Assembly: GCA_012960475.1 (NCBI GenBank)
Contig: DUBE01000066.1
Location: forward strand, 83,683 to 147,682
Length of the DNA: 64,000 nucleotides
Direction: 5' to 3'
Source: Planctomycetota bacterium
GTDB lineage: Bacteria; Planctomycetota; UBA1135; GCA-002686595
Shown here piece by piece: positions 2,008-50,659 of the stretch. The stretch's first letter is position 1. Each line of letters begins with the position of its first letter. The notes under the pieces are model-generated. The model saw only the letters and a list, made by a program, of their open reading frames with translations, was not told where the DNA came from and did no database searches. A program made the position numbers and the translations under genes.

Positions 2008-2333
2008 GACCCGTTCCGTGTCTCGTATTGAAACAGCTTTCCCAGGGCTTGGTCCACCATCCCCCAATGGGGTCCGGGAGGCGCTGGCTCTGGGAGGATC
2101 TCTGAGCGAGGACGTTCGAGAGAGAGTCTGCAAGCAGATCAGGAGTGGCGGCCCGCTCTGCAGGCCGTCGTTTCCCCGGTTCTTTGCTTGCGCCTTGTGT
2201 TCGCGTTCTCGCTCCCGTCGAGGCCAGTCTGCAAAGGTTCACGGGTCAAGCCCAGGCCGCCCCGGGGGATCAGGATTTCTGCCCTCGGTCCTGGCCTTCA
2301 GCGGGCCTACGGAGCGGAAACAGGCCTGTGCCA

Positions 2334-2362
2334 TGGAAAGGGGTTGCTGCTTCGGTTAGACT
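2334..2362 (+). promoter_or_regulatory. candidate guaB promoter, near-leaderless
   Basis: TGGAAA (2334-2339) and TAGACT (2357-2362) are 17 bases apart. Only five bases separate the -10 element from the guaB ATG at 2368, so transcription would begin at or next to the start codon. This would fit the absence of a Shine-Dalgarno sequence there. Confidence 0.35.
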
Positions 2363-2367
2363 GCTCC

Positions 2368-3819
2368 ATGCCCGAAATCCCCCTGGCCCTGACTTTTGAC
2401 GATGTCCTCCTGGCGCCCATGCACTCGGATGTGCTGCCCAGCCAGGTCAGCCTTGTCACGCGCTTTAGCCGCCGTGTGCAGGTGAACATTCCTTTGAGTT
2501 CTTCGGCCATGGACACGGTGACCGAATGGCGTCTGGCGGTGGCCCTTGCACGGGAAGGGGGCATTGGCATCGTTCACCGCAATCTCAGCATCGAAGAGCA
2601 GGTGGTCCAGGTGGACAAAGTCAAACGATCCGCCAACGGAGTGATTGAGGATCCGGTGACCTTGGCCCCCACTGCGAGCTTGGGCCAGGCGCGGGAAATC
2701 ATGAGCACAATGAGCATCTCCGGTCTGCCCATCGTTGAGGGGGAAACCGTGGTGGGCATTTTGACCCGTCGAGACACTTCCTTTGGAGAGCCGGACGAAA
2801 AGCCCGTGGCTGAGGTGATGACCACAGAGAATCTGATTGCCGCCCCTCCTGGCACCAGCCTCTCGCAGGCAGCAACTTTGCTCAACGAGCACCGGGTGGA
2901 AAAACTGATCATCTGGGATGATGCCCATCGTCTGCGCGGTCTGATAACCCGCAAGGACATCGACATGCTTGAGGCCTTCCCGAACTCCGCTTTCGATTCG
3001 CGCGGGCGACTGGTTGTGGGCGCCGCCATCGGAGTGCACGACTACGAGCGAGCCACTGCCCTGGCAAAGGGTGGGGTGGATGTGTTGGTTGTGGACACCG
3101 CCCATGGACACACCACCAACGTGACCGAGACCGTGACCAAGCTCAAGGAGACCTTGCCGGAGGTGGACATCGTTGCCGGCAATGTGGCCACCGGCGAAGC
3201 CGCCCTGGCCTTGGTCGAGGCAGGCGCAGACGGGGTCAAGGTGGGCATCGGCCCTGGTTCGATCTGCACCACTCGGGTGGTGGCGGGCATTGGAGTGCCC
3301 CAGCTGAGTGCCGTGATGGAGGTTGCAGACGCCCTTGCTGGCAGCGGCATTCCTGTGATTGCCGATGGTGGCGTCCGCTATTCGGGGGACGCGGTCAAAG
3401 CTCTCGCGGCAGGTGCCTCCTGCGTGATGCTGGGCAGTCTCTTCGCCGGTCTTGAAGAGTCCCCCGGTGAGACCTTTGTCTATCAGGGTCGCTCCTTCAA
3501 GAGCGTGCGCGGTATGGGGTCCTTGGGAGCCATGACCAAGGGCTCAAAAGAACGCTACCGCCAGGCACATGTAACCGACAACAAGAAACTCGTGGCAGAG
3601 GGCATCGAAGGCATGGTGCCCTACAAGGGTCAGCTTTCTTCCTATGTCTATCAGTTGTGTGGCGGTGTGCGCGCCGGTTTGGGGTACTGCGGCGCGGGAT
3701 GCATCAGTGAATTGCCCGAGCGTGCTCGCTTCGTGCGCATCACTGCTGCTGGAGTCCGCGAGAGCCATCCCCATGACGTGCAGATCACCAAGGAATCCAG
3801 CAACTACCACCACGAATGA
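2368..3819 (+). CDS. guaB: IMP dehydrogenase
   Basis: GuaB oxidises IMP to XMP with NAD+, the committed step of GMP synthesis, in the cytoplasm. The 483-residue length is normal. The protein opens with [10 protein letters not shown], carries a tandem CBS (Bateman) domain at about residues 95-205, and has the catalytic loop GPGSICTTR with Cys300 and the flap segment [15 protein letters not shown]. The frame is open further upstream, but ATG 2368 begins the conserved N terminus and lies just behind a candidate -10 element. The stop overlaps the guaA start as ATGA, so the two steps IMP to XMP to GMP are translationally coupled. Confidence 0.97.
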
Positions 3820-42690: not shown

Positions 42691-44133
42691 ATGGACCCCG
42701 ACCCTGTCCTGGCTTCCTCCGGCAGCACGATCTGCGCCCTTTGTAGCGCAGGGGGACGGGCCAGCCGCGGGGTGATCCGGGTCTCTGGACCCCTTTCCGG
42801 GGAGCTCTTGGAGCGCACCACCTGTGGGACGCAAGGTGCTGCACAGGAGGGTCTCAAGCCCCAGTCACGGGGGGTCTTTGAAGGCCAGTTCAATGACGGC
42901 CTGGGTACCTGTCCCGTGCTCGTGATCTGGATGCCGGGTCCCGGGTCCTATACGCGCGAGGATGTGGTGGAGTTTCACCTGCCGGGAAACCCGCACCTCA
43001 TGCAAGCTGCTCTGCAGCGACTGTTGAAACTCGGAGCCCGCAGCGCCGAACCCGGCGAGTTCACGCGCCGCGCCTTTGAGAACGGTGCCCTGGACTTGAC
43101 CCGAGCCGAGGGTGTCCTGGCCCTCATCGAGAGCGCCAATGAGGAGCAGCGGCGCGCGGCCAGCGCGCTCTTGTTAGGTGGACTTGGCAGGCGCATGGCG
43201 GGATTGCGTGAATGCCTGGATGACTTGCGCTCTCTCTTGGAAGCCTCTTTGGATTTTGATCAGAACGACACGGGGCATGTGCCCGAGGAAGAACTGGAAG
43301 CGCTCTTCCAGCGTGCCTTGGAGAAGTTGCATGCGGCCACCCATTGGGAGAGTGCGCGGGATGCGGGACCGGACCTGCAGAGGGTTGTGTTGGCGGGGGC
43401 GCCGAATGCGGGCAAGAGCTCGCTCTACAACGCCCTGATGTCCTGCGCCCCCGATCCCATGCCCGCACTGGTCGATCCCCTGGCGGGCAGCACCCGGGAT
43501 GTGCGCCGGGGAGAACTCTCCTTGGGGCGCGGGCGAGTGACCTTGATCGACACGGCTGGGGTCGGTCCCCTGCAGAACCCTGGGGAGGCGGCGCTTTCCG
43601 GGACCCTCGATGGCCGTGCCCAGGAGCGTGCTCGTGAGGAGGTGCAGGCGGCCGACCTGGTGCTCTGGGTGCTTGATGGGGGGGCTGAGGTCCCTGCGCA
43701 TCTGGACCCTCCTGGCCTCTTGGTCTGGAATCAGATCGACCGGGCCGGGGTCTCTCAGGAGCCTCCTGAGGGCTTGATCAGGGGGGCTCGGGGCTGGTGT
43801 GCGGTCAGTGCCCAAGAGGGTCAGGGCCTCGAATCCTTGCGCAAGGTCGTCTCAGGTCTGCTCGGCTTCGCCCCTCCAGCCAGTGGGGCAGGGCCGCAGT
43901 CTTCCGAAGGGGGTTCCCTCGGGCGCCAACTCCGTGCTCGTCATCTGGATGCTCTGCGCTCCGCCAGGCAGGCCCTGGCCGAAGCCCATCAGCTCAAGGC
44001 CCAGGCAGCTCCTCTGGATCTTGTGGCCGAGGCCCTGCGCGGGGTAAGCCGGGAGTTCGATGCGATCGAGGGCAGTAGCACTTCGGAGGATCTGCTGGAC
44101 CGGATTTTCTCGCGCTTTTGTTTGGGCAAATGA
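42691..44133 (+). CDS. mnmE: tRNA modification GTPase MnmE
   Basis: MnmE with MnmG makes the 5-carboxymethylaminomethyl group on U34 of tRNAs. The 480-residue protein has the N-terminal tetrahydrofolate-binding domain (GVIRVSG, PGPGSYTREDVVEFH), helical domain, G domain with P-loop GAPNAGKSS, GSTRDVRRG, DTAG and NQID (the G4 motif has Gln where Lys is usual), and the C-terminal FCLGK that carries the conserved Cys. It is codirectional with yidC at 5 bases spacing, so probably one operon. Confidence 0.94.
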   Translation: MDPDPVLASSGSTICALCSAGGRASRGVIRVSGPLSGELLERTTCGTQGAAQEGLKPQSRGVFEGQFNDGLGTCPVLVIWMPGPGSYTREDVVEFHLPGNPHLMQAALQRLLKLGARSAEPGEFTRRAFENGALDLTRAEGVLALIESANEEQRRAASALLLGGLGRRMAGLRECLDDLRSLLEASLDFDQNDTGHVPEEELEALFQRALEKLHAATHWESARDAGPDLQRVVLAGAPNAGKSSLYNALMSCAPDPMPALVDPLAGSTRDVRRGELSLGRGRVTLIDTAGVGPLQNPGEAALSGTLDGRAQERAREEVQAADLVLWVLDGGAEVPAHLDPPGLLVWNQIDRAGVSQEPPEGLIRGARGWCAVSAQEGQGLESLRKVVSGLLGFAPPASGAGPQSSEGGSLGRQLRARHLDALRSARQALAEAHQLKAQAAPLDLVAEALRGVSREFDAIEGSSTSEDLLDRIFSRFCLGK

Positions 44134-44274
44134 GCCCGGCAGGAGTTCAAGCGCCCACGGCAGGACAAACCACAAGTCCTGGCGTCAGATCCCCTCTAGC
44201 GGCGATGCATACGCAAGATGTAGAGTAGCGGGCCGCGTTGGAGCTCCTCTAGGGGGGCCCAGACGTCCATCCCC

Positions 44275-44748
44275 ATGAACTGTCCCCGTTGTGCCGCTGG
44301 CGACGACCGCGTCGTCGATTCCAGAACATCTGCTGACGGCAGCGCTATCCGGCGCCGTCGTGAGTGTCTGGGCTGTTTTCAGCGCTTTACCACCTACGAG
44401 AGGGTGGAGGAGACCCCCCTCAGGGTGGTCAAGAAAAATGGCGAGCGGGTGCGTTTTGAGCGCGAGAGAATCCGCTCGGGAATGCTGCGCTCCTGCGAGA
44501 AACTTCCCATCAGTATGGAGGACATCGAAGCGGCTGTGGGGCGCATTGAAACCCAGTGCCAGGGGGAGTTCGATCGTGAGGTGCAGAGCTCGGTCATCGG
44601 CTCCCTGGTGATGGATGAGTTGCGGAACATTCATCAGGTGGCCTATGTGCGCTTCGCCAGTGTCTATCGCGAGTTTCGTGACGTGGAACAATTCCTGGAG
44701 ACCCTGCGCCCGATCCTGCGCCAGCCTTCTGGGGAGATGGACTCATGA
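44275..44748 (+). CDS. nrdR: transcriptional repressor NrdR
   Basis: NrdR represses ribonucleotide reductase genes when its ATP cone binds ATP/dATP. The 157-residue length is standard. The zinc ribbon has Cys3-x2-Cys6 (MNCPRCAAG) and a second CxxC (CLGCFQRF), followed by RFTTYERVE and the ATP cone, VKKNGERVRFERERIRSGM to FASVYREF. No NrdR box is evident in the 141 bases upstream and no ribonucleotide reductase gene is in the window. The stop overlaps the next gene (ATGA), which encodes another ATP-cone protein. Confidence 0.95.
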   Translation: MNCPRCAAGDDRVVDSRTSADGSAIRRRRECLGCFQRFTTYERVEETPLRVVKKNGERVRFERERIRSGMLRSCEKLPISMEDIEAAVGRIETQCQGEFDREVQSSVIGSLVMDELRNIHQVAYVRFASVYREFRDVEQFLETLRPILRQPSGEMDS

Positions 44749-46820
44749 GGGGCCCGGTTCCCATGCCCGAGTTTCTGCGCAAACGCGATGGACAGGTGGT
44801 TCCTTTCAGTCCTCAGCGCATCACCCATGCGGTTGCCCGGGCCCAGGCGGCGGTGGGGGACGGGGATCCGGGCCTGCCCTTGGAAGTGGCTGAACTGGTG
44901 GTCATGACCCTGATCAGTCGAGCGGAGTCGGGCTTGGTCAGTTTGCAGGAGGAAGCTCCTCCGACCGCTACTTTGGAAGAGGTACAGGACTTGGTGGAAG
45001 AGGCTTTGGTGGGTCTTGGCCGCACCAAGATCGCCAAGGCCTACATCCTTTATCGGGATCGGCGCAGCCGCGCTCGGGAGGCTCTGATGGTTTTCGATGG
45101 AAGTCCCCAGAGCAGTAGCGGTGCGCCGGAAGTGCGCGGGTCCGAGGGTACTCAGGCCTGGCAAGCCAACCGCATTGCCGCCGCCTTGGTGCGGGAGGTC
45201 AGCTTGTCCGTGCAAGTGGCGGACGAAGTGGCCCGGCGCGTAGAGAAGGAGATCCTCAGTCTGGGCATGTCGCGCATTTCCAGTGGCCTTGTGCGCGCTT
45301 TTGTAGATCAAGAACTGCAGACCATGGGGCTCTTCGATGCCACCCGCGCGTCGGAACCTTTGGGCCTTGCCCGGCCAGATCTGCGCGCATTGCTTTTGGC
45401 TCCCCGGGAAGATCGGCGGGCAACCGAAGAGCGGCATGCGGCTCCACCTGCCTCCGGCGAGCGTCGTGTGGCGGGATCGATCATGTCCCGTTGGGCTGTA
45501 GAGGATGTGCTGGGCGAGGAACTGGCAGAAGCCCACCACCGGGGCGAGGTTCTGGCCCTGGGATTGGAACGCCCGCACCTGCCCCTGGTGCGTTCGGTCA
45601 GTGCTGCGGGTCTGGGCGCAGGCGAGGTGGGCTTTGCCCGCTCCCTGGGGGTCTTGGTGACCCTGCTCGAAGGATCGGCCCAGGGCCTTGTGCTGGAGGG
45701 GTTTTCTCACTTGCTGGGCCCAGCCCGGCGCGGTGTCCGCCAGGGGGCCGACGAAGCGCGCGTGTCCGAAGCCCTTGCGGCTTTGGCCGCCATCGGTCAA
45801 GCCACAGGCCGCCGCTTGGACCTTGCACAGCCAGGAGGGCGCGGTCCGCGACCGTTGCTGCGTCTCTTGAGCGGTCTGCTCAGTGCGCTTGCCAGTGGCC
45901 AGGCTGTGCCCCGTTTGTTTCTCAACTATGACGAGATTTCCGGTGCCCTGGAAGAAGAACCGGATCTGGCAGAGGGCATTGATACCTTGCTGGCCAACGG
46001 TCTCTTGGTGCCGGTCTGGGGGGGCCCCAGTCAGCGCTTCGCGGGTCCTGCCCTGGCTCGGCGCGCCAGGGAAAAAGGGCCCTTGACCTTGGGGGCGGGG
46101 GTCGCTCTCGATCTGGTGCGCATCGCCCGGCGGGCAGGGCCCTGGAACGAGGAGGCCTTCCTGACGGGCATGGTGATCGAAGTTCAACGTGCCTTGGAAG
46201 CTCTCAAGAGGCTGGCTGCGGCCCAGACCGAGTTCGGTCCGGCTTTGCCCGGGGGGCGCAGGATTCACGGCATTGTCCCCGTGGGTCTCTCCGATGCCTT
46301 GCGCATCTTGGGGGACGGGATCGTGCGTCCGGAGCAAGGTGCGCGGGCCTTGGGTGTATTGCGGGACTCCGCTCGCACCCAGGCCGAGGGACTGGGCTTG
46401 ATGGTGGATGTCTCGACCTTGCTTTCTGGGCCCGCGTCCGAGGTGCTCGCCCGTCGAGAGGCAGGCCGCTCTCGTCCTTCCCAAGCCGCGCTCTTCAGCA
46501 AGAGACCTCTGCCGGAAAGTGAGTGGGTGGAGTCCTATCACCGTGGTCTCGACCTGGGGGATGGCATGGCGGCAGGGGATCCCCATGAACACGGTCGCGC
46601 CCTGGCGGTCATGACATCGACTCTACCCAGCGGCGCCCTTTGGCCCCTGGTGGATCCCACTGTCAGCTACCGGGCGGGTCTCTCCTGTTTGACTGCCTGG
46701 CAGGCCTTTGTGGTCGAGCGTGAACGTCGTCTGCAGCCGCACCTCCTATCCCCTGCAAAGCCGTTGACAAAGGGCACTCGGCCCCTATTTGAATCCACCG
46801 TTCAGTCACACCGTCCGTGA
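44745..46820 (+). CDS. ATP-cone protein with RNR-like remainder lacking catalytic cysteines
   Basis: The 691-residue product starts with an ATP-cone domain (residues about 5-100, FLRKRDGQVVPFSPQRI to AYILYRDRR) and a second cone-like segment (about 125-210, WQANRIAAALVREVS). The remainder, from about residue 245, has a layout reminiscent of class III ribonucleotide reductase (GSIMSRWAVEDVLGEELAEAHHRGEV, FLNYDEISG, VPVGLSDALRILGDG). Only one Cys (residue 648) is found in the whole protein, and no glycyl-radical motif or zinc cysteines. It is coupled to nrdR (ATGA), so a regulatory rather than catalytic role is inferred. An internal ATG at 44763 is an alternative start. Confidence 0.7.
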   Translation: MRGPVPMPEFLRKRDGQVVPFSPQRITHAVARAQAAVGDGDPGLPLEVAELVVMTLISRAESGLVSLQEEAPPTATLEEVQDLVEEALVGLGRTKIAKAYILYRDRRSRAREALMVFDGSPQSSSGAPEVRGSEGTQAWQANRIAAALVREVSLSVQVADEVARRVEKEILSLGMSRISSGLVRAFVDQELQTMGLFDATRASEPLGLARPDLRALLLAPREDRRATEERHAAPPASGERRVAGSIMSRWAVEDVLGEELAEAHHRGEVLALGLERPHLPLVRSVSAAGLGAGEVGFARSLGVLVTLLEGSAQGLVLEGFSHLLGPARRGVRQGADEARVSEALAALAAIGQATGRRLDLAQPGGRGPRPLLRLLSGLLSALASGQAVPRLFLNYDEISGALEEEPDLAEGIDTLLANGLLVPVWGGPSQRFAGPALARRAREKGPLTLGAGVALDLVRIARRAGPWNEEAFLTGMVIEVQRALEALKRLAAAQTEFGPALPGGRRIHGIVPVGLSDALRILGDGIVRPEQGARALGVLRDSARTQAEGLGLMVDVSTLLSGPASEVLARREAGRSRPSQAALFSKRPLPESEWVESYHRGLDLGDGMAAGDPHEHGRALAVMTSTLPSGALWPLVDPTVSYRAGLSCLTAWQAFVVERERRLQPHLLSPAKPLTKGTRPLFESTVQSHRP
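46764..46791 (+). promoter_or_regulatory. candidate smc promoter inside the upstream gene
   Basis: TTGACA (46764-46769), a perfect -35 consensus, is followed after 16 bases by TATTTG (46786-46791). It lies in the last codons of the ATP-cone gene, 50 bases before smc. Confidence 0.35.
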
Positions 46821-46840: not shown

Positions 46841-49800
46841 ATGCGTCTGGTACGTCTCGAACTATTTGGCTTCAAGTCCTTTGCTGACTTCACTGTGCTT
46901 GAATTTGGCCAGCGGAGCCTGACCGGTGTGGTTGGACCCAATGGCTGCGGCAAGAGCAACGTGGTGGACGCGGTGCGTTGGGCCCTGGGGGAGACCCGCC
47001 CAAGTTCCATGCGGGGCTCGGGCATGACCGATGTGATTTTCAAAGGCTCAGTCAGCCGGCCGGCCATGGGTTTTGCGGAAGTCACCCTGGTGTTTGACAA
47101 CTCGAGTGGATTGCTTGCGGATCACGCGGCAGAGATCTCTGTCACCCGGCGTCTCGAGTCCAGCGGCGAGGGCTCCTACATGATCGATGGCCAACGGGTG
47201 CGGCTCAAGGACGTCAGGGACCTGCTCTTTGATACAGGCCTTGGGTCCCGCGGGTACTCGGTGCTGGAGCAGGGCCGTATTGACGCGGTGATTTCCGCCA
47301 ATCATCAACAGCGGCGGACAGTGTTCGAAGAGGCGGCGGGCATTTCGCGCTATCGCCAGCGGCGACACGAGACGGGGCTGCGCCTCAAGCACGTGTCTGT
47401 GGACATGGAGCGCGTTGACGACGTGATTGCTGAGCTGCGTACGCGCGTGCGATCCCTCAAGATCCAGGCGGGCAAGGCCGAGCGCTATCTGATTGCCAGG
47501 GACGAGTGGTCCGTGGGTCGTCGTCGGTTTCTAGGTCACCGCCTGTTCAACATAGACGGGGAACTGCACACCCTGCGGCCCCGGATTGAGAGCCAGGGTG
47601 AGGACCTCGAGCAACTGCGGGAGCGTCGCAGCGGTCATGACATGCAGGCTCGTCAGCGAGAAGATGAACGGAGCGCGGTGGTGGCCGAGCTTGACCGGGT
47701 CTCCGGGGAAGCTGGACGCCTGGAGGGTGAAGCGCGTGCTCTGGTGGAGCGTCGCAAGGCTCTTCTTGTACGGGTTGAGAACTGGCGTCAGTCGGCGAAT
47801 GAAGAGACCTCTCGGGCGCAACAGTTGGCCCAGGAGATCGAAGATCAACGGGCTGCGGTGACCGCTCTGACCCGGGAATCCGAGGGGCTCAGTGGGCAGG
47901 CTGCCCAAGCCAAGAGCAAGCTTGAAGAGTTGGCCAAGAGCGATCGCAGCTGTGCACAGCTCTATAAGCAGTCCCGCGAGGCCGCTCAGGCCCAGAATGA
48001 AACCGTGCTGACCTGTCTGCATGAGCGAGGCGTCGCTACCAGTCGCAATCGGCAGCTGAGCGAAGATCTGCCGAGGCTTGATCAGCGTGTCAAGCGCGTC
48101 ATGGATCGGCAGGCTGAATTGCAGCAGATCCTGGAAGAGACCCGCGCCCAGCGAGGCGAACTACTCACAACTTTGCAGCGGGCCGAAGCCGAAGCCCAGG
48201 TCGCATCGGTTGCCCGTGAAGAGCAACAGGTGCGTCTGGAAGATCGTCAAGAGGAACTGCGCAGGTTGGACGAGAAGCGCGCCGCCTTGGATCTGGAGCG
48301 CGCTGGCCATCAAGCCCGGGCCGCTGCCCTGCGCGATCGGGAACGGCAATTGGAGGAACTCTCCTCTGGCGGCAAGCGTCTTCTGGAAGCCAGCGAAGGA
48401 GACCGCGGTCCCTGTGGCACAGAGGACCTCCTGGGCGTGGTCGCGGATCATTTGGCCATCGACACCCGCCTCACTCGAGCATTGGATGGGGCTCTTGGTA
48501 CCCGAGCCTCATCTGTTGTGGTCAAGGACGAGCATGTGGCCAGGACCATCCTGGGGTGGGCTCAGCAAGAGGAACTGGGCCAGATCGATCTTGCATTGCC
48601 CTCTGGGCTGGGCGTTCCTTGCGGCCCCGCACCAACGGACTCTGCATTCTTCGCACGCTTTGGAGATGGTGTCGAAGGCCGGCTAAGCGATCTTGTGCGT
48701 TGCGACGATCATGTGCGTCCTCTGGTCCGGGCGCTGTTGTGCGATGTGGTAGTGGTGTCGGACTTGGATTTGGCCCTCAAGTTGGTTGCAGAGAATTCCC
48801 AGTGGCGTTTCGTGACCCTTGCCGGGGAAGTGGTTGACGCAGCTGGTCTTTCTGGGGGCTACTGTGAATTGGATCAGGGGGTGATCGGTCGCCGGGTGGT
48901 TGCGGATGAATTCGAGCAGCGTTGCGTGTCGCTCTCCCATTCGATTGCGGAAGTGGATCAAGAGCGCGAGGACAGCTTGGTTGCCCTGGCTCAGGACCGG
49001 GAGTCATTGAGCGCCAAGGAGCAGTGTCGTGAGGTGGCCCAGGCTGCCTTGGCTTCAGCTGCTCGCGCCCGAGCAGCCCTTGAGGGACGTCAGGTGGAAC
49101 AGGAAGCTGCCCTGACCGAGAAAACTGACGAACATGCTCGGGTCAAGCACGAGTGGACTCAGTTGAATCAGGATTTCTTGCAGGCGGGACAGGATCAATT
49201 GGCCGCCGAGCAGGCTTTTGAGCAGCAAAATGCAATCCTGACTGGTTTCGATCAGGGGCGCCATCAGCTGGAGCAGGAGCGAGATGGCATCCGGCGCGAG
49301 ATCGCCGGGGCCGATGTGGAGCGTCAGCGCGTGGATTCAGAACGCCAGGCCTGTGAAGAGCGTTTGCGTGGGGATCAGGTGCGCATCGAGCGCGACCAGG
49401 CGGAACTCGCCCGTGCTCAACGGCGTTCAGAGAACTTCCGGGCGAATGCAGTCAGTGGCGAGGAGGAAGCTCAGCAGGTACAGCAGCAGGTTGTGGCCCA
49501 GCGCGAGCAGGCGCAGGCTCTGATGGGGCAGTTGGAGGCCTTGCGCATGCGCGAGCGGGAGGGAGCAACCCTGGCTCAGCAAGCACGTAGGGCAGCGGAA
49601 GAGGTTCAGGAGGAACTGGATCAGGTCAACGAGCAGTTGTCAGAGCAGAAGCTCACCCAGCAGCGTCTGGAGTTGGAGCGGGAGGAGCTGCTGGTGCGCT
49701 CCGATGAAGAATTGAGTCTCAGTCAGGACGACCTGAAATTGGGCTTTGAGCCAGAAGCTGATCTGGCCACCGAAGGTGCGATGCAGGCCTTGCTATCCAA

Positions 49801-50659
49801 GGTGACCGAACTCAGGCATGTGCTTGAGAAGCTCGGCCCGGTCAACCTGGAAGCGGTACATGAGTTGGACGAGGTGGCCAGGCGATTGGCGCACCTCGAA
49901 GTCCAGGCCGATGATCTGAGCAAGGCCCGCAAGAACCTGGAAGAGACCATCAAGCGCATCGATGAAGAGTCCCGGCGCATGTTCATGGAGACCTTCACTG
50001 TGGTGCGCGGACACTTCCGGACGATCTTCCGCCAGATGTTTGGTGGGGGACGAGCAGACCTGCAGCTCGATCCGAGTGTGGACGTTCTGGACGCGGGCAT
50101 TGAGATCATCGCCCGGCCGCCGGGTCGTGAGATGCTGCCCATCGGCTTGCTCTCAGGTGGTCAGCGCACCATGACCGCACTGGCTCTCTTGTTTGCGGTG
50201 TTCAAGGCAAAGCCCAGTCCTTTCTGCATCCTCGATGAGGTGGACGCAGCTCTCGATGATGCCAACATTGATCGTTTCCTGGCCATGCTGAGCGACTTTA
50301 GAACGACTTCTCAGTTCGTGGTAGTGACCCACAACAAGGGCACCATGAGCGCCTGCGAGGCGCTCTTTGGGGTGACCATGCAGACCAAGGGCGTCTCACG
50401 CTTCGTGGCTGTGGAACTCGATCAGGTGGATCAGTTTGCCCCCGAGTCCACGGGCAGTACCCGTTCCGGCGGCCCGGATCTGATCGGTCGCGGCAGTCTT
50501 GGGGTTGAAGAGGACCCTCAGGAGCGGAGGCTTGACGAGCACGGGGAACAGGTGGTGGAGTTGCATCCCACACCTCGGCAGGGGGCATCCACTGGCCAGC
50601 GCTCCGTTGCAGATGTCCAGAAGTCGGTAGTGGAATCTGCCGCTCCCCACGAAGACTGA
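46841..50659 (+). CDS. smc: chromosome segregation protein SMC
   Basis: SMC forms the arms of bacterial condensin with ScpA and ScpB and compacts and separates sister chromosomes. The 1272-residue protein has the Walker A GPNGCGKSNVVDAVRW in its N-terminal head, long coiled coils, a hinge at about residues 520-660 (LLGVVADHLAIDTRLTRALDGAL to VGDxx-like loops), and the C-terminal head with LGPVNLEAVHEL, the ABC signature LLSGGQRTMTALALLF and Walker B ILDEVDAALDD. A low-complexity tail of about 90 residues extends past the head. ScpA and ScpB are not in the window. It converges on the peptidase gene, 16 bases apart. Confidence 0.95.
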   Translation: MRLVRLELFGFKSFADFTVLEFGQRSLTGVVGPNGCGKSNVVDAVRWALGETRPSSMRGSGMTDVIFKGSVSRPAMGFAEVTLVFDNSSGLLADHAAEISVTRRLESSGEGSYMIDGQRVRLKDVRDLLFDTGLGSRGYSVLEQGRIDAVISANHQQRRTVFEEAAGISRYRQRRHETGLRLKHVSVDMERVDDVIAELRTRVRSLKIQAGKAERYLIARDEWSVGRRRFLGHRLFNIDGELHTLRPRIESQGEDLEQLRERRSGHDMQARQREDERSAVVAELDRVSGEAGRLEGEARALVERRKALLVRVENWRQSANEETSRAQQLAQEIEDQRAAVTALTRESEGLSGQAAQAKSKLEELAKSDRSCAQLYKQSREAAQAQNETVLTCLHERGVATSRNRQLSEDLPRLDQRVKRVMDRQAELQQILEETRAQRGELLTTLQRAEAEAQVASVAREEQQVRLEDRQEELRRLDEKRAALDLERAGHQARAAALRDRERQLEELSSGGKRLLEASEGDRGPCGTEDLLGVVADHLAIDTRLTRALDGALGTRASSVVVKDEHVARTILGWAQQEELGQIDLALPSGLGVPCGPAPTDSAFFARFGDGVEGRLSDLVRCDDHVRPLVRALLCDVVVVSDLDLALKLVAENSQWRFVTLAGEVVDAAGLSGGYCELDQGVIGRRVVADEFEQRCVSLSHSIAEVDQEREDSLVALAQDRESLSAKEQCREVAQAALASAARARAALEGRQVEQEAALTEKTDEHARVKHEWTQLNQDFLQAGQDQLAAEQAFEQQNAILTGFDQGRHQLEQERDGIRREIAGADVERQRVDSERQACEERLRGDQVRIERDQAELARAQRRSENFRANAVSGEEEAQQVQQQVVAQREQAQALMGQLEALRMREREGATLAQQARRAAEEVQEELDQVNEQLSEQKLTQQRLELEREELLVRSDEELSLSQDDLKLGFEPEADLATEGAMQALLSKVTELRHVLEKLGPVNLEAVHELDEVARRLAHLEVQADDLSKARKNLEETIKRIDEESRRMFMETFTVVRGHFRTIFRQMFGGGRADLQLDPSVDVLDAGIEIIARPPGREMLPIGLLSGGQRTMTALALLFAVFKAKPSPFCILDEVDAALDDANIDRFLAMLSDFRTTSQFVVVTHNKGTMSACEALFGVTMQTKGVSRFVAVELDQVDQFAPESTGSTRSGGPDLIGRGSLGVEEDPQERRLDEHGEQVVELHPTPRQGASTGQRSVADVQKSVVESAAPHED

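Follow-up and report, generated by a model that had tools for sequence, protein, structure and literature searches.

A degenerate class III ribonucleotide reductase encoded beside nrdR in Planctomycetota, a probable nucleotide-sensing pseudoenzyme

The window analyzed here, a stretch of 64,000 nucleotides from a member of the Planctomycetota, carries on its forward strand the genes mnmE (42691..44133), nrdR (44275..44748) and smc (46841..50659) and, between the latter two, a gene for a protein of 691 residues (44745..46820). NrdR, the transcriptional repressor of ribonucleotide reductase (RNR) genes composed of a Zn ribbon and an ATP-cone, is identified by TIGR00244 (194 bits) as well as by the Pfam families Zn_ribbon_NrdR and ATP-cone. 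The 691-residue reading frame begins within the nrdR stop codon, such that the two genes share an ATGA overlap, as an initial annotation of this DNA had described, and smc begins 20 bases past its end. On the basis of profile comparisons, a structural model and a fold search of the Protein Data Bank (PDB), the product is referred to here as pseudo-NrdD. Gene context marks mnmE and smc as conserved neighbors upstream and downstream, respectively. In all 34 close homologs nrdR lies directly ahead and smc follows on the same strand, and across the Planctomycetota nrdR is found no more than 500 bases away in 78 of 86 loci examined; the proposed coupling to nrdR, and its co-occurrence with this gene in related genomes, are thereby substantiated. 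Alignment of the mnmE-nrdR spacers of the genus additionally reveals, ahead of nrdR, a weak and tentative NrdR-box-like sequence, ACGCAAGATGTAGAGT, with C and G spaced 9 (44211..44226, forward strand).

The only Pfam family detected within the window protein is the ATP-cone, which matches in two stretches and thus agrees with the two cone-like segments initially described. The first cone is complete and gives the best match (residues 12-108, 66.8 bits; 44778..45068, +). Residue mapping places its K13, R14, D15, Y103, R107 and R111 at the positions of K7, R8, D9, Y83, R87 and R91 of Prevotella copri NrdD, residues that lie around the nucleotides in that enzyme (PMC11226230); all six are retained in the window protein, and all six are likewise found in 28 of 32 family members. 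The second cone (approximately residues 128-208; 45126..45368, +) is degenerate and shared with active planctomycete NrdDs, in which, as here, the usual KRDG lid motif is missing; to judge from its sequence, this cone probably does not bind nucleotides in the usual manner. Among pseudo-NrdD family members the cones are conserved above the core; active enzymes show the reverse, with conservation highest in the core. While an ATP-cone is common to pseudo-NrdD and NrdR, the DNA-binding Zn ribbon (PMC9110341) is present in the product of the adjacent nrdR and absent from the window protein.

Beyond the cones, the body of the window protein is genuinely that of a class III RNR (NrdD), in degenerate form, with a barrel spanning residues 236 to ~578 (45450..46478, +). 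A full-length family profile aligns with the nrdR-linked planctomycete NrdDs over 601 columns (profile-profile E 9.6e-72), and the core without its cones is matched to planctomycete NrdDs by hhalign at 98.3% probability (E 1.5e-14). Pfam NRDD gives weak matches to several homologs located exactly at the nrdR-linked locus, one of which (L029) clears the family cut-off. When the window protein was used singly in a phmmer search of the PDB, matches were confined to the cones; the body is matched through profiles and the fold search. The AlphaFold models, which are of the monomer, have a pLDDT of 82.8 for the full protein, with RNRs as the top PDB matches and NrdD first among them, and a pLDDT of 90.6 and pTM of 0.90 for the core alone. 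The 28 best PDB matches to the core model are all NrdD, and their TM scores of 0.52-0.65 show, at the level of a predicted structure, a fold common with NrdD together with considerable divergence. The core thus presents the ten-stranded barrel of RNRs and glycyl-radical enzymes by model, PDB matches and hhalign alike. A related barrel, 2HA9 (SP0239 of Streptococcus pneumoniae), is a weak fold match (E 3.7e-3, TM 0.40-0.42), but NrdD matches far better and no sequence link to 2HA9 was found. The class III-like layout that the initial annotation had read into the ~450 C-terminal residues is therefore upheld by profile comparison, by the Pfam NRDD matches of homologs and by predicted structure, no unrelated fold having been seen.

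Comparison with structurally characterized NrdDs (P. copri 8p23, S. thermophilus 9dca, T. maritima 4coj) reveals what has been kept and what has been lost. Held in common are ancestry, the barrel, an N-terminal ATP-cone (present in most) and the NLPR and GL.EAL core motifs; in contrast, the window protein lacks the thiyl cysteine, the NxN flap, HxHD, the Zn site, the glycyl site and an NrdG2 activase. Specifically, active relatives carry SACCRL in the finger loop of the thiyl-radical cysteine, 18 of 32 homologs have GPGC-R there, and the window protein has GPALAR, with P435-A436-L437 (46047..46055, +) aligned at the cysteine position. As was first noticed from its sequence, the 691-residue protein has a single cysteine, at residue 648, and none lies within the barrel. 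The NxN flap columns are occupied by R and A, and the HxHD triphosphate motif has become LALG. The glycyl-radical site and the Zn Cys4 are absent from all 32 aligned family members, extending to the family what had been claimed for this protein. No TIGR02495 (NrdG2) match exceeds the cut-off in 37 genomes of the window group, the best score in the host's own genome, 41 bits, falling short of the 131 bits required. The supposition that close homologs would lack both the catalytic cysteine and the glycyl-radical site consequently stands for the latter and falls in part for the former: the 18 homologs with GPGC-R retain a cysteine no more than one alignment position from the thiyl cysteine, while their other catalytic sites are gone. 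The homologs with this loop cysteine lie among L008-L028, and several of them carry a second cysteine 12 residues on.

The retained loop cysteine, together with the finding that other planctomycete NrdDs seem to have their glycyl-radical domain encoded by a gene of its own (see below), raises the question of whether the family still comprises enzymes that work with a glycyl-radical domain in trans or with another cofactor. We regard this as very improbable: the NxN and HxHD substrate motifs are lost, NrdG2 is missing as described, and a stand-alone glycyl domain was found neither in the window genome nor in the remaining genomes sampled from its family. For the window protein, with no cysteine in its barrel, activity is nearly excluded, and the initial judgment that catalysis is unlikely is reinforced by the loss of every one of the sites listed above.

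Loss of catalysis has not been accompanied by loss of the gene. Of 37 genomes sampled from the window family, 33 encode a homolog, and further families of the order do so as well; a scan of genome contigs returned nine long homologs, mostly from Planctomycetota, the remaining matches being cones of other RNR-type proteins. Comparison within the genus yields dN/dS values of 0.09-0.10 over the whole gene and ~0.07-0.10 over the barrel. These resemble the value for smc next door, so the barrel is under selection even though it cannot be catalytic. Taken together, the distribution of homologs, the nrdR and smc flanks and a dN/dS of ~0.1 exclude a chance reading frame, and sequence comparison indicates that the pseudo-NrdD family is old and under purifying selection. 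That sites are lost step by step across the phylum might suggest a gene decaying without function, but an open frame, a dN/dS of ~0.1 over cones and core alike, and presence in nearly all family genomes render this idea barely credible; within the genus, the pseudogene reading was ruled out by dN/dS and conservation. At one locus (L116:1572-2072 and 2048-3721) the homolog appears as two overlapping ORFs, both of which are matched by the family profile, as may result from a frameshift or from a genuine split.

The origin of the family can be traced to active enzymes encoded at the same locus. In other Planctomycetota (L056-L072), two-cone NrdDs of ~815 residues adjoin nrdR in 17 of 17 loci; like the window gene, these have nrdR upstream and encode two N-terminal cones, and they form its nearest lineage in the tree, but they differ in keeping every catalytic residue checked and, for several, in having nrdG2 beside the gene. 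The family HMM scores these active nrdR-linked NrdDs at 330-375 bits versus 108-119 bits for two ordinary planctomycete NrdDs. In a maximum-likelihood tree, obtained by a quick search and containing several long branches, the window family and the other degenerate forms compose one clade (SH-aLRT 99) inside the nrdR-linked group. This nesting suggests that linkage to nrdR and the presence of two cones are ancestral and that catalysis was lost later. Adjacency to nrdR could be an inheritance from an ancestral nrdR-nrdD operon rather than a sign of functional retention. The same consideration bears upon smc, whose same-strand position downstream of all 34 close homologs would be expected if the gene were a hitchhiker in an mnmE-nrdR-smc cluster serving an unrelated purpose, such as chromosome segregation with SMC. 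Since the order nrdR-nrdD-(nrdG2)-smc is present in some active relatives, however, the smc linkage looks ancestral as well, and the conservation of the cone residues likewise speaks against such a role, which we consider improbable.

What the protein might act upon is suggested by the RNR complement of its host. Class I is represented in the genome by NrdAB, in which NrdA carries an ATP-cone; a further RNR, NrdJ, is class II-like and devoid of a cone, the classes being assigned from sequence. No recognizable NrdD was found in the genome, and the host depends on NrdAB and NrdJ. Upstream of nrdA, aligned promoters of the genus reveal a conserved pair of NrdR-type palindromes, CACTAGATGTAGTG and TACTCCATATGGTA (L041; G000:C27:119856-119869), located 31 bp apart, a spacing also seen in the Streptomyces NrdR operator (PMC9110341), and CACTAGATGTAGTG is the sole exact match in the genome to its palindromic pattern. 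Scanning the window, nrdA and nrdJ loci for an E. coli-type NrdR box, with 3 mismatches to the consensus allowed, gave no match. Given the two-box operator and its spacing, control of nrdAB by NrdR is likely in this host.

The class III ancestry, the missing catalytic sites, the purifying selection, the coupling to nrdR and the intact cone 1 residues are all observed, and together with these data they lead us to favor, with reasonable though incomplete confidence, the view that pseudo-NrdD is a pseudoenzyme: an nrdR-linked NrdD in which catalysis has fully decayed while cone 1 and the barrel have been selected, and which would take part in the control of RNR as a partner that senses nucleotides. 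NrdR senses ATP and dATP through oligomer changes mediated by its ATP-cone (PMC9110341), and NrdD answers the same nucleotides by changing oligomeric state through its cones (PMC11226230). A nucleotide-sensing partner is the most economical reading. In this model, the class III machinery has decayed in a large planctomycete branch for which class I and II enzymes do the work of ribonucleotide reduction. Pseudo-NrdD, most likely made together with NrdR, would take up ATP or dATP in cone 1 and, by analogy with NrdD and NrdR, switch its oligomeric state, and the switched form might then tune dNTP supply either as a hetero-oligomer with NrdR held by cone-cone contacts or by binding a catalytic RNR.

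The second of these options can be stated in a stronger form, in which the partner is a catalytic RNR and not NrdR, with the pseudo-reductase supplying a cone in trans, or an inhibitory cap, to NrdAB or to the cone-less NrdJ. Consistent with such a role are the missing cone of the host NrdJ, the cone-cone and cone-core contacts by which the ATP-cones of NrdA, NrdB and NrdD act (PMC11226230), and the persistence of the family where classes I and II replace class III. Yet in every close relative the gene is tied to nrdR and not to nrdAB or nrdJ, and NrdA already possesses a cone of its own, so that we hold this alternative to be rather unlikely, though deserving of consideration. Returning to the nucleotide-sensing partner, its most far-reaching version, in which a class III RNR has become a specialized dATP/ATP sensor devoid of catalysis and forms a two-part regulator with NrdR across a large part of the Planctomycetota, is put forward tentatively, as a possibility to which we give somewhat less than even weight. 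Cone 1 and the barrel are further eroded in shortened f5 homologs (L035-L040, ~560 residues) encoded behind nrdR, and cone 1 is eroded in some distant members also, so that a conserved function in dATP sensing cannot hold throughout the family.

A precedent for the reuse of an RNR as a pseudoenzyme is provided by the inactive large subunits of betaherpesviruses (HCMV UL45; HHV-6B RNR) (PMC5469499, PMC11772975); unlike pseudo-NrdD, these are viral, derive from class I and target host signaling, with no link to dNTP control. A literature search, which covered mainly papers available without subscription, returned neither a cellular family of RNR pseudoenzymes nor a protein partner of NrdR. The planctomycete proteins compose a series leading from active nrdR-linked NrdDs, through forms whose radical glycine seemingly resides on another gene, to fully dead proteins, and thereby illustrate how an essential enzyme may become a probable regulator; pseudo-NrdD, in turn, offers a direct test for co-regulators of NrdR.

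The intermediate forms of this series merit separate description. Nine planctomycete NrdDs (L073-L081) keep all the catalytic residues checked except for the radical glycine, whose position is occupied instead by S, H, I, E, P, D or L. That all such Gly-less proteins are dead was an idea dropped when stand-alone glycyl domains were found: seven of the nine genomes encode separate NrdD-type glycyl-radical proteins of 105-220 residues (L211:995-1387, L230:1263-1679, L231:1177-1497, L232:1191-1568, L233:1241-1903, L234:1029-1352 and L235:924-1277) with the C-terminal motif TR[VI]VGY[FY]SR..NWN.SK.GEL.DR, while the search gave none in the other two (G194 and G113). A radical-SAM gene neighbors four of the nine loci, and two of these are confirmed NrdG2. 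In a published search, the class III RNRs found were all Gly-encoding (PMC11528403), and stand-alone glycyl 'spare parts' have been proven for pyruvate formate-lyase (PFL) only (PMC8683613). The combination of a Gly-less NrdD and a stand-alone glycyl protein is, as far as sequence can tell, probably a split class III RNR. A stand-alone NrdD-type glycyl domain also accompanies an intact NrdD in G222 (L212:901-1296) and in other f49 genomes, where it possibly constitutes a spare part, as YfiD does for PFL.
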